The position numbers and the translations under genes were made by a program. Below the pieces are notes generated by a model, which saw only the letters and a list, made by a program, of their open reading frames with translations, was not told where the DNA came from and did not search any database. Below, in pieces: positions 24,331 to 32,740 of a stretch of 32,740 nucleotides of DNA. Location of the stretch: the NCBI GenBank assembly GCA_012523075.1, contig JAAYJF010000135.1, positions 1 to 32,740 on the forward strand, given 5' to 3'. The DNA is from Clostridiales bacterium (GTDB taxonomy: Bacteria; Bacillota; Clostridia; Ch29). How positions within the stretch are numbered: the stretch's first letter is position 1; each line of letters opens with the position of its first letter.

Positions 24331-25203
24331 TTACATTGATTTGTTAATGCCCAATATTACCGCCAAATCTATGGTAATGTGGGGGATGCCTATTCTTAGT
24401 ACTTCCTTTATCCTTTCATCCGCAGCTCCCCAGGACAGCGGGGTCATCCTGATAAGGTGTTCAAGGTTATGTTTGTCTACCGGTATACTATACAGTATGT
24501 CCCAGGTACCGGCTGTGTTGAAATTTTCTTCGAAATGAGCGACAATCCTCTCGTTCGAATACTTTTCTTTTCCGGTTGACCTGTAGAAAAGCTCCCGAAG
24601 TTCAAGAAGATACTTGCTGCCGGGCACCACCTTTATAAGGATGCCGTCACCGGTCAAAAGCCTTTTGAATTCGGCATAATTTGCCGGGGAAAGGATGTTC
24701 AATATAGCATCAAAGCTGCCGTCTTTAAAGGGCACCTTTGCCAGGTCGGCCACGCACCAAGCAATGCTTGGGTATTCCCTGGAAGCGATTTGTATCCCCT
24801 CCTTGGAAATATCGATACCTACCCCGGTTACCCGCCTGTCGTTACGGCCTTTCATGCTTTGAATCACCCGGGCAAGGTGGGAGCCCTCGCCGCACCCGGC
24901 ATCCAGTATCCTTGTGACGTTGGTGTGGGGTCCACCGGCGTGGTCCAGTATTAGACCGGCAAGTTTACCCGTAAGGGGTTCAAACAGTCCGTTTCGGATT
25001 ATTATGCTTCTTGACTTCAGCATTTCTTTGTCATAATCGGTTTTCGCAGGGCTTGTAAGAAGATTAACGTATCCTCTTTTGGCCAGGTCAAAGCAGTGGT
25101 TTTTTGCGCATACAATGCTTTTTTCGCCGACCATCCGCATTTTGCCGCCGCAAAAGGGGCATCTAAATAGATTTAAGTTTTCCTTAACCTGCATTGTTTT
25201 CAT
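24331..25203 (-). CDS. rlmA: 23S rRNA (guanine-N1-)-methyltransferase, RlmA family
   Basis: 290 residues. The N-terminus has a zinc-ribbon: CPFCGGKM, then CAKNHCFDLAKRGYVNLL, the usual RlmA pattern. The Rossmann methyltransferase domain shows ILDAGCGEGSHLARV (SAM motif I), GIDISKEGIQIA (motif II) and FDAILNILSPANYAEFKRLL. RlmA methylates N1 of a guanine in hairpin 35 of 23S rRNA (G745 or G748); the G748 form (TlrB) affects macrolide susceptibility. Which of the two positions applies is not decided here. Its own extended -10 promoter is at 25235-25246 and it ends at the shared terminator. Confidence 0.92.
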   Translation of the reverse strand: MKTMQVKENLNLFRCPFCGGKMRMVGEKSIVCAKNHCFDLAKRGYVNLLTSPAKTDYDKEMLKSRSIIIRNGLFEPLTGKLAGLILDHAGGPHTNVTRILDAGCGEGSHLARVIQSMKGRNDRRVTGVGIDISKEGIQIASREYPSIAWCVADLAKVPFKDGSFDAILNILSPANYAEFKRLLTGDGILIKVVPGSKYLLELRELFYRSTGKEKYSNERIVAHFEENFNTAGTWDILYSIPVDKHNLEHLIRMTPLSWGAADERIKEVLRIGIPHITIDLAVILGINKSM

Positions 25204-26186: not shown

Positions 26187-26216
26187 TTGAATATTGGAAA
26201 AAATGAGTGTTATAAT
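26187..26216 (+). promoter_or_regulatory. Promoter of rsgA and its leader
   Basis: TTGAAT (26187-26192), 18-bp spacer and perfect TATAAT (26211-26216) preceded by TGT, an extended -10. Transcription would start near 26223, leaving a leader of about 135 bases before the rsgA start. Confidence 0.8.
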
Positions 26217-26251
26217 GCGATTATTGAAAAAGAGATAGGAGATGTGTATTT

Positions 26252-26308
26252 ATGAAATACAACAGAACAGCGGAGATTGTAATAATAGGGGAGGTATGTA
26301 TAAGATAA
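26252..26308 (+). CDS. Possible 18-residue leader peptide upstream of rsgA
   Basis: ATG at 26252 with AGGAG 10 bases upstream, 18 codons (MKYNRTAEIVIIGEVCIR) and TAA at 26306-26308. It overlaps the upstream GGGAGGT segment that can pair with the anti-SD sequence of the rsgA leader. It is too short to prove as coding; the case rests on its start signal and position. Confidence 0.4.
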   Translation: MKYNRTAEIVIIGEVCIR

Positions 26309-26352
26309 TTGTACAAAACCTCCCAAAGGTTACAATCAAACTTCAGGAGGTT
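26289..26352 (+). promoter_or_regulatory. Leader with mutually exclusive pairings controlling the rsgA ribosome-binding site
   Basis: ACCTCCC (26318-26324) can pair with upstream GGGAGGT (26289-26295, 7 bp), while the overlapping AACCTCC (26317-26323) can pair with GGAGGTT (26346-26352, 7 bp), which contains the rsgA ribosome-binding site. A third, 5-bp pairing AACCT/AGGTT (26317-26321 with 26327-26331) is also possible. The first and second pairings cannot coexist, so the leader could switch rsgA translation on or off. Base pairing is seen; switching is inferred. Confidence 0.5.
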
Positions 26353-26358
26353 AATGAA

Positions 26359-27447
26359 TTGGAAAAAATAGATATAAAAAGCATAGGGCTTACCGAAAGG
26401 TTTATTAAGGAAGCCGGAGGATATAATGGTCTTTATATAGGCCGGGTTTCTTCGCAGCATAAGGATATATACAGCGTAATTACACAAGAAGGAGAGATTA
26501 AGGCAGAGGTCTCCGGCAAATTTCGTTACCTTGCCGGGGCTGCTTTAGTCCAGTACCCGGCAGTTGGTGACTTTGTAATGATTGACCGTACCGATGATTC
26601 TAAGGGCAGTGCAGTCATTCATCATGTGCTTGCCAGGAAAAGCGTCTTTATACGGAAGGCAGCCGGGCCCACAAGGGATGCACAGGTTATCGCAGCCAAC
26701 ATCGATACGGTTTTCATATGCATGTCGCTCAACAACGATTTTAACCTGAGAAGGCTAGAGCGATACCTTTCCATTGCCTGGGACAGCGGGGCGACGCCAG
26801 TTGTGGTGCTCACAAAATCCGATCTATGCGATAACCCGGAAGGAAGGCTTAAGGGCGTGGAAGCGGCGGCAGCCGGGGTGGACGTACTGCTTACGACAAG
26901 TATTTCAGATGATGGGCATTCATCGGTCAAGAAATATATCCGAAAGGGGCAGACGGTCGCTTTTATCGGCTCATCAGGAGTTGGGAAGTCCACCCTGATA
27001 AACCGGCTGGCCGGTGAGGACTTGCTGGCCATAGGCGGGTTAAGGGATGACGACAGGGGAAGGCATACTACCACCAGACGGCAGCTTGTGGTGCTGCCGG
27101 AGGGCGGCGCGGTGATTGATACCCCGGGGATGCGGGAGATAGGGATTATTGATGCCGACCTTTCAAAGGCCTTTGCCGACATCGACGACCTTGCCGCTGG
27201 ATGCAGGTTCAGCGACTGTACCCATGGCAGCGAGCCGGGATGTGCAGTTCAAGAAGCGATAAGGGAAGGCTTCCTCCCGGCGGAAAGGCTTGAGAGCTAT
27301 AAAAAGCTTAAGAAGGAAGCCAGGTATGAAGGGCTTAATTCCAAGATGATTGAAAGGGAAAAAATAACCGAAATGTTTTCCGGCTTCGGCGGAATGAAAA
27401 ACGCCAGGAAATTCATTAAGGAAAAGGCCAGAAAAAAACAGTGGTAA
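26359..27447 (+). CDS. rsgA: Ribosome small-subunit-dependent GTPase A (RsgA/YjeQ)
   Basis: 362 residues from TTG 26359, preferred because GGAGG ends 8 bases upstream and the resulting N-terminus MEKIDIKSIGLTERF fits family members; an in-frame ATG at 26296 has its GGAGG only one base away. An OB-fold domain is followed by a circularly permuted GTPase: LTKSDL (G4) comes before GSSGVGKSTL (G1) and DTPGMREIG (G3). A zinc-binding C-terminal domain has Cys/His in CRFSDCTHGSEPGC. RsgA binds the 30S subunit during late assembly and hydrolyses GTP there. This longer form is often a second rsgA-like gene in clostridia. A good terminator follows. Confidence 0.93.
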   Translation: MEKIDIKSIGLTERFIKEAGGYNGLYIGRVSSQHKDIYSVITQEGEIKAEVSGKFRYLAGAALVQYPAVGDFVMIDRTDDSKGSAVIHHVLARKSVFIRKAAGPTRDAQVIAANIDTVFICMSLNNDFNLRRLERYLSIAWDSGATPVVVLTKSDLCDNPEGRLKGVEAAAAGVDVLLTTSISDDGHSSVKKYIRKGQTVAFIGSSGVGKSTLINRLAGEDLLAIGGLRDDDRGRHTTTRRQLVVLPEGGAVIDTPGMREIGIIDADLSKAFADIDDLAAGCRFSDCTHGSEPGCAVQEAIREGFLPAERLESYKKLKKEARYEGLNSKMIEREKITEMFSGFGGMKNARKFIKEKARKKQW

Positions 27448-27593: not shown

Positions 27594-27607
27594 GGGAGAT
27601 GGTTGAA

Positions 27608-27949
27608 ATGAAAAACAGAATAAGCCTTATGGGGCTTTTAGGACTGTTGGGCCTTCTGGGCCTTATTACAGATAACCCTGGCTTCTATGGTTTCTTCGGT
27701 TTCTTCGGTTTTTTCGGGTTTGCTAAGATTCTTCCCGATGAAATGTTCAAGCAAAATGTAAACAAGGCTGCCAAAAACGCCTTTTTCACAGGGCTAATCA
27801 TATATCCGACGGTGGTTGTTATTGGCACCCTTTCTTTATTTCCATTTGCCTTGGTTTTCACCTTCGGTTTTGCAGTAAACTTTGCCGTGCAGATACTTGT
27901 GTTTAGTTTTTCCCTGTCAAAATACGAAAAGTCTGGTGGTGTAAGATGA
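27608..27949 (+). CDS. Small membrane protein with LLG and FFG repeats (DUF3796-like)
   Basis: 113 residues from the ATG at 27608, which has GGGAG about 9 bases upstream; the in-frame ATG at 27599 overlaps that site. It opens with [13 protein letters not shown], then has [14 protein letters not shown], a repetitive Gly/Leu and Gly/Phe pattern, and two further membrane segments (about residues 62-80 and 82-101). From memory this fits the DUF3796 proteins, which are often next to XRE regulators. Its stop overlaps the start of the XRE gene (ATGA). Role unknown. Confidence 0.8.
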
Positions 27950-32209: not shown

Positions 32210-32740
32210 ATGAGAAAGAAATACGCAGTAGCAATTATTCTAATGGTTACCTTACTGGTGGTGTCAATGGCTTCCACAGCCTTTGCCGGTAACTTTGTCG
32301 ATACAGGCAGGTGTGAAACAACCGTCAACAAAAAGGTAAAGGTTAACAAGGAAAGCGGACCAAGGGCTTCGGAAAAAGAAAAAATCGGGGTTATGGAAGT
32401 CCTGATAAGGAACAAGCCGGAGGTACCGGTAGAGCAACCGGAGGCACCAGTGGTAGAGCAACCGGAGGTACCGGTAGAGCAACCGGAGGCACCAGTGGTA
32501 GAGCAGCCGGAGGTACCGGTAGAGCAACCGGAGGCACCGGTAGAGCAACCGGAGGTACCGGTAGAGCAACCGGAGGTACCGGTAGAGCAACCGGAGGCAC
32601 CAGTGGTAGAGCAACCGGAGGTACCGGTAGAAGAAGAGCCGGAGGTTCCCGTGGCTGAAGAACCAAAAGGCCCGGCGGACCAGAACCTTTCCGGGTTAAG
32701 CGTCCAGGAAAGGGAAATGGTGGAGTACGTGAACCAGGAA
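32210..32740 (+). CDS. Secreted CAP-domain (SCP/PR1-like) protein with repeat stalk, cut by window end
   Basis: Open to the end of the window (177 codons seen, no stop). AGGAGGGG precedes the ATG. The first 26 residues form a signal peptide (MRKK start, hydrophobic core, STAFA cleavage site). After a basic linker comes a stalk of eleven imperfect Pro/Glu/Val repeats, for example PEVPVEQ and PEAPVVEQ. The last visible residues, LSVQEREMVEYVNQE, match the start of CAP domains of YkwD-like proteins in spore-forming bacteria. The protein is probably secreted or wall-associated; the catalytic or binding part is outside the window. CAP function in bacteria is poorly known. Domain call is moderately sure because only its first residues are visible. 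Confidence 0.85.
   Translation, partial: MRKKYAVAIILMVTLLVVSMASTAFAGNFVDTGRCETTVNKKVKVNKESGPRASEKEKIGVMEVLIRNKPEVPVEQPEAPVVEQPEVPVEQPEAPVVEQPEVPVEQPEAPVEQPEVPVEQPEVPVEQPEAPVVEQPEVPVEEEPEVPVAEEPKGPADQNLSGLSVQEREMVEYVNQE
32417..32662 (+). repeat. Tandem in-frame repeats coding for a Pro/Glu-rich stalk
   Basis: Eleven units of 21 or 24 bp; the commonest begin CCGGAGGTACCGGTAGAG (PEVPVE) or CCGGAGGCACCAGTGGTA (PEAPVV). Near-identical DNA suggests recent expansion and likely length variation between strains. Confidence 0.92.

Follow-up and report, generated by a model that had tools for sequence, protein, structure and literature searches.

A probable uORF-controlled translational attenuator in the leader of the RsgA paralog RsgA2, shared with RNHCP and GNAT genes

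INTRODUCTION

The leader of an rsgA-like gene in a Clostridiales genome raises the question of whether translation of a short upstream open reading frame (uORF) decides if the gene itself is translated. RsgA is a GTPase that binds the 30S ribosomal subunit. The window analyzed here is the whole stretch of 32,740 nucleotides (nt) of contig JAAYJF010000135.1 (assembly GCA_012523075.1). In a preliminary description, the leader was proposed to form either a GGGAGGT:ACCTCCC hairpin or a pairing that hides the ribosome-binding site (RBS), with translation of an 18-codon uORF selecting between the two. Our data indicate that the leader is probably a uORF-controlled translational attenuator: a uORF with Shine-Dalgarno (SD) sequence, start and stop, mutually exclusive hairpins and, as far as modeling goes, a ribosome position that decides between them are all found.

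RESULTS

The controlled gene encodes an accessory RsgA paralog

The gene product carries the RsgA GTPase domain (PF03193, 169 bits with a cut-off of 30; TIGR00157, 157.5 bits with a cut-off of 100). It had been taken for rsgA itself, but a canonical RsgA of 301 amino acids (aa) is encoded elsewhere in the same genome (L038), in the gene order serine/threonine kinase, rsgA, ribulose-phosphate epimerase, and the window protein (362 aa) is longer and 34% identical to it. An RsgA match was present in 38 of 40 class genomes, and a second, longer RsgA in only a few. Because the classical 301-aa protein exists in the same genome and second copies are rare in the class, the window gene is an accessory paralog, RsgA2, rather than the housekeeping copy.

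The TTG start at 26359 matches the homologues. Its weakness had been read as fitting tight control; this start is not conserved, ATG or GTG standing in its place in several relatives. The rsgA2 frame is open in the 5' direction through the whole leader to an ATG at 26242 (window 26242-27447), so that annotation software may translate the leader into a false N-terminal extension of 39 residues.

The leader can form two mutually exclusive hairpins

The features of the locus are collected in Table 1. The sequences GGGAGGT, ACCTCCC and GGAGGTT were all found where the preliminary description had placed them, as was the 18-codon uORF that runs over the first of these with its own SD.

Table 1. Positions of the leader elements and of rsgA2 in the window
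Feature	Position	Strand	Remark
Putative promoter, TTGAAT-18-TATAAT, TG before -10	26187..26216	+	consensus match only
Expected transcription start of the putative promoter	near 26223	+	
uORF Shine-Dalgarno sequence, AGGAG	26237..26241	+	SD-like sequence also precedes the uORF in homologous leaders
uORF, 18 sense codons, MKYNRTAEIVIIGEVCIR	26252..26308	+	ATG 26252, TAA 26306-26308
Basal stem, 5' strand, GATTGTAA	26275..26282	+	covaries with 26330-26337
GGGAGGT within the uORF	26289..26295	+	5' strand of open-state hairpin; GGAGG 11 nt before uORF stop
Apical stem, 5' strand, TGTATAA	26297..26303	+	partner 26309-26315
Apical stem, 3' strand, TTGTACA	26309..26315	+	
Switch strand, AACCTCCCAAAG	26317..26328	+	partner 26289-26295 (open) or rsgA2 RBS (closed)
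ACCTCCC inside switch strand	26318-26324	+	complement of GGGAGGT
Basal stem, 3' strand, TTACAATC	26330..26337	+	partner of GATTGTAA
rsgA2 RBS region, CTTCAGGAGGTT	26341..26352	+	sequestered in closed state; RBS GGAGGTT at 26346-26352
rsgA2, RsgA-family GTPase, 362 aa	26359..27447	+	TTG start

Folding of the leader (approximately 26223-26358) revealed that two mutually exclusive hairpins are possible, the first of which is overlapped by the uORF. The fold of positions 26223-26361 (-33.3 kcal/mol) is more stable than those of dinucleotide shuffles (-18.9 ± 3.0 kcal/mol; z -4.8), none of 200 reaching it, and z was -5.3 when a longer stretch was taken. The hairpin exceeds the one first described, given that a basal stem and an apical stem flank GGGAGGT:ACCTCCC; the uORF stop is inside the loop of the apical stem.

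Both alternative pairings covary

We assessed the pairings by an alignment-free strand-swap test, in which the uORF strand of each species was combined with the switch strand of every other. For the open pairing, own partners had a mean advantage of 4.5 kcal/mol (z -8.9), and none of 20,000 permutations was as good; for the pairing of switch strand and RBS, comparison with between-species chimeras yielded z -4.6. Thus, the covariation named beforehand as a check on the two pairings is present in both. When flanks were shuffled within species and the core was kept, z fell to -1.3 (open) and +0.5 (closed). After thinning to 13 leaders with identities below 72%, the natural pair beat the median chimera in all 13 (open) and in 11 (closed). 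Pair counts gave 78% of cells paired, versus 41-53% when slid, and a covariation score of 0.22, versus ≤0.08 in slid controls. Compensatory changes were seen in G004, a genome of the same family (GATAGCA/TGCTATC), in GNAT leaders (L152/L155; GAGAGG/CCTCTC) and in a Peptoclostridium leader. As the CCTCC:GGAGG core is nearly invariant, support for the closed state comes mostly from its extension, CCTCC(C)AAAG...CTTT(A)GGAGG, for which slid controls score almost as high and the contrast is weaker.

The element is conserved in several classes and lost in the nearest relative

Scanning one genome per species for RsgA2, we retrieved the 80 closest loci, which belong to Bacilli, Clostridia, Negativicutes, Synergistota and others. 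A covariance model located the leader at 42 of these at E ≤ 0.0053, many of them being training sequences. Among the 45 parsed leaders, the window's family included, the distance from GGAGG to the uORF stop is exactly 11 nt in 37 and never less, and the uORF spans 14-22 codons (18 in most RsgA2 homologues), its frame being kept through the length changes. By inspection, the first codons of the uORF peptides vary, and the motifs EI(V/A) and EV(C/Y) coincide with base-paired strands. A model trained without the window, G004, G005 and L045 recovered the window leader at E = 6e-11 as the sole significant site in the 2.0-Mb genome; its only other match there was the same palindrome on the opposite strand (E 0.94). 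When the 3' arm was sought as an exact string across 391 class genomes, the matches beyond the family were only chance ones within coding sequence. Comparison of these sequences is what establishes both pairings and the uORF, with its SD, frame and stop position.

Absence of the pairings or the uORF from close relatives had been set in advance as the refuting outcome. Pairings, uORF, SD and stop persist across the 45 leaders and several classes, so the proposal withstands this check. Within the same family, G005 retains the whole element with an 18-codon uORF (MNNRKISEIVTDGEVCSK), and G004 retains it with stems that are altered yet still pair (uORF MFKAYTVEIAVKGEVYAD). In contrast, the nearest relative, G002, which belongs to the same genus and is the one close relative with the gene, has two rsgA2 copies that both lack ~31 bp between two ATTGTA repeats. 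This deletion removes the GGGAGGT strand, and both copies are predicted to be permanently closed. Control is therefore dispensable in a close relative. G003 and G001 yielded no RsgA2 match at E ≤ 1e-30.

Where this leader is missing, RsgA2 genes in some cases carry another, with an apparent intrinsic terminator shortly before the start: GGGCATAGT..ACTATGCCC-T (L061, L104, L108, L111, L114 and L120) or AGCGCAGT..ACTGCG-T (L106, L107, L110 and L117). Other attenuator types may control the RsgA2 family at these loci. A second rsgA2 copy in G005 (L036, on C49) has a tRNA, a recombinase-like ORF and an RNHCP gene in its vicinity, and the locus is possibly mobile.

At gathering score, Rfam release 15 gave no leader match for the window and 18 homologous loci; a hit to mir-994 at relaxed threshold (E 3.3) was discarded as chance.

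The same element precedes RNHCP and GNAT genes

With a covariance model trained on RsgA2 leaders only (R1), we scanned 291 class genomes and obtained 17 matches, i.e., 7 before rsgA2, 4 before a gene with an RNHCP domain (PF12647) and 6 before one GNAT family. A refined model (R2), applied to 398 phylum genomes, some of which repeat species of the first collection, added 28 matches (18 RsgA2, 4 GNAT, 3 RNHCP and 3 without an assigned gene). Thus, what had been described as an rsgA leader is a real element, but one common to RNHCP and GNAT genes rather than specific to rsgA. Among the three unassigned R2 matches, L165 and L168 could be linked to no gene, and L169 was rejected as an element, since it resembles an intrinsic terminator.

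The families are also linked by gene order: leader, rsgA2 and GNAT follow one another in L134, as do leader, RNHCP and rsgA2 in L138, and RNHCP adjoins rsgA2 in L036. The window's own genome has no RNHCP gene. On a plasmid of Roseburia sp. 831b, a 526-aa protein annotated as RsgA (L171:2986-4566) matches the GNAT family in its N-terminal part, which suggests a GNAT-RsgA fusion.

GGAGG-N11-stop recurred in 14 of the 18 further RsgA2 leaders, and the other four have the stop at +14. The uORFs of L133/L151 and of several GNAT leaders were read by eye, the automatic parser having picked wrong start codons. The 11-nt spacing does not hold throughout: the uORFs of the GNAT leaders and of some RNHCP leaders, ~11 codons long, have their stop immediately ahead of GGGAGG. 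Even so, the GGGAGG strand would lie under a ribosome terminating at such a stop. In three GNAT-type leaders (L130, L137 and L139), an additional segment of the ATCT type (TACAATCTC in L137) is complementary to GAGATTGTA of the uORF, which is suggestive of a third alternative pairing.

Modeled ribosome position and state of the switch

In partition-function folding, the mean unpaired value of the RBS fell from 0.56 without a ribosome to 0.08 once one was placed at the uORF stop, and the direction was the same in 43 of 45 leaders. In a few leaders (L048, L050, L092 and L118), the closed fold is predicted to prevail with no ribosome present. As the model ribosome was moved along the uORF, the window leader and the average over leaders behaved alike: the RBS was open as long as the P-site codon was at -11 from the stop or earlier, and closed between -9 and -2. 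Outcomes at positions -3 and -6 did not change for footprint edges from +13 to +18, and among the retested positions (-1, -3 and -6) only the stop (-1) was sensitive to the edge. With an edge of at least +17, a ribosome at the stop covers the first switch-strand bases of the window leader and the RBS opens, as it does in leaders with a stop-to-anti-SD spacing below 10. In 26 of 36 leaders, the switch strand lies at least 10 nt past the stop, and no edge up to +18 opens them (mean 0.12). Given that only the stop position depends on the footprint, the leader is best read as a switch turned off by translation, which leaves room for a special role of stalling at the uORF stop.

These predictions bear on both halves of the original proposal. 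That translation shuts the gene agrees with a closed RBS when the model ribosome is on the second half of the uORF, and that stalled or low translation opens it agrees with the open state predicted for an empty uORF or for early codons, the state at the stop codon being footprint-dependent.

DISCUSSION

In the mechanism we propose, a uORF that is untranslated, or on which ribosomes halt within the first seven or eight codons, would leave the switch strand in the 5' hairpin, so that the rsgA2 RBS would be free and rsgA2 translated. Ribosomes passing through the second half of the uORF would melt this hairpin, and the freed switch strand would then pair with the rsgA2 RBS and close it. The sign of control, i.e., repression of rsgA2 by uORF translation, is what the folding model predicts. 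With the stop in the A site, the last sense codon is 8 nt after GGAGG, a spacing that is also the SD-to-start distance of rsgA2 in many leaders. This shared spacing raises the idea that SD pairing with GGAGG, 11 nt before the stop, may hold terminating ribosomes and strengthen the off state. We infer that the natural signal would be failing translation, whether through poor initiation, inhibitors that stall ribosomes early or too few active 30S subunits. As the same switch stands before three families in many Gram-positive bacteria, these genes are probably on when protein synthesis falters. Only tentatively do we extend this to a translation-stress regulon of Bacillota and Synergistota, comprising RsgA2, the RNHCP protein and one GNAT acetyltransferase, which would be on when uORF translation fails and whose sensor might be a terminating ribosome held by SD pairing at GGAGG.

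Could the leader instead work as an antibiotic-type attenuator, in which only a ribosome arrested at a set site, such as the uORF stop, opens rsgA2 by covering the switch strand, and ordinary or absent translation does not? GGAGG and the uORF stop stand at a fixed distance, termination stalling induces other uORF-controlled genes (PMC12121999), and the window and leaders with a spacing below 10 do open with a ribosome at the stop once the edge reaches +17. However, most leaders are already open without a ribosome, so a stall at the stop is unneeded; the 26 leaders with the more distant switch strand stay closed over the edges tried; and uORF peptides, by inspection, do not appear to be conserved as arrest peptides are. 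We consider such a mode unlikely. Less plausible still is a protein-binding leader, with RsgA2 or the 30S subunit binding the hairpin for autoregulation independent of uORF translation: RsgA binds 30S, and the SD-like GGGAGG in the uORF could be a direct 30S site, but the same element precedes RNHCP and GNAT genes, which are unrelated to RsgA, and the uORF retains its start, SD, frame and stop, none of which would be required for protein binding.

A switch turned off by uORF translation also has to be weighed against decay, i.e., a leader that functions in relatives and is a leftover in the window's genus, from which rsgA2 is disappearing. The locked G002 copies and the lack of RsgA2 matches in G003 and G001 point that way; against this, the window copy keeps every feature and was found by the leave-out model, and G005 and G004 of the same family retain the leader, which makes decay improbable. 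Hardly credible is a metabolite riboswitch, for which exclusive hairpins that sequester an RBS would be a typical expression platform, since the interval between promoter and uORF has neither the room nor a conserved aptamer, and the apical loops are variable and coding, with no Rfam match.

Attenuators of the ErmC type have a leader uORF with its own SD, alternative hairpins and a sequestered main-gene RBS, are off when the leader is untranslated, and are induced by drug-specific stalling. The window leader shares the short ORF with SD, the alternative hairpins and the hidden RBS, but has three strands rather than four and, as judged by inspecting the peptides, no apparent arrest-peptide signature; since most leaders are predicted to be open when no ribosome is present, the polarity would be opposite. 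The toiL uORF of the E. coli topAI-yjhQ operon, a generic sensor of several ribosome-targeting antibiotics, likewise serves a hidden main RBS (PMC12121999). There, it is the uORF RNA that pairs with the RBS and a stalled ribosome opens it, whereas the uORF strand of the window leader is an anti-sequestor, so that ribosome passage would close the RBS. The VmlR/ABCF leaders of Bacillota also place a uORF before an inducible ribosome-associated factor in the same phylum (PMC9226507, PMC10201436), the main gene being an ABCF rather than RsgA2; transcription attenuation and pausing of RNA polymerase are reported to take part in vmlR control (PMC9226507). A candidate before fthC in Streptococcus is predicted to respond to uORF initiation and has SD, start and stop inside the motif, but it ends in an intrinsic terminator and belongs to another gene and genus (PMC11109978). 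With the RsgA/YjeQ/CpgA GTPases, RsgA2 shares the GTPase domain, being longer and accessory. In a search that most subscription journals lay outside, we found no paper on a bacterial RsgA2 leader or joining rsgA with leader peptide and attenuation, so that a prior description is possible, and, with most subscription papers likewise outside, none on RNHCP biology.

If correct, our interpretation would describe a regulatory RNA family of broad distribution whose polarity is inverted, the gene being turned on by translation failure, and would place three little-understood protein families under a single signal. RsgA2, RNHCP and GNAT proteins could then be tested for a role in the response to ribosome-targeting drugs or to failing 30S subunits, and the leader would offer a direct way to ask if translation capacity controls ribosome-assembly factors.

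Other features of the window

An RlmA-like 23S rRNA methyltransferase gene (window 24331-25203, minus strand) lies close to map and rsgA2. Downstream, the N-terminal region of a DUF3796 protein (window 27599-27949) contains runs of GLL and GFF triplets. At window 32264-32666, on the minus strand, overlapping repetitive ORFs encode LLYRYLR-like and VPPVALP-like repeats and probably represent a DNA tandem repeat.
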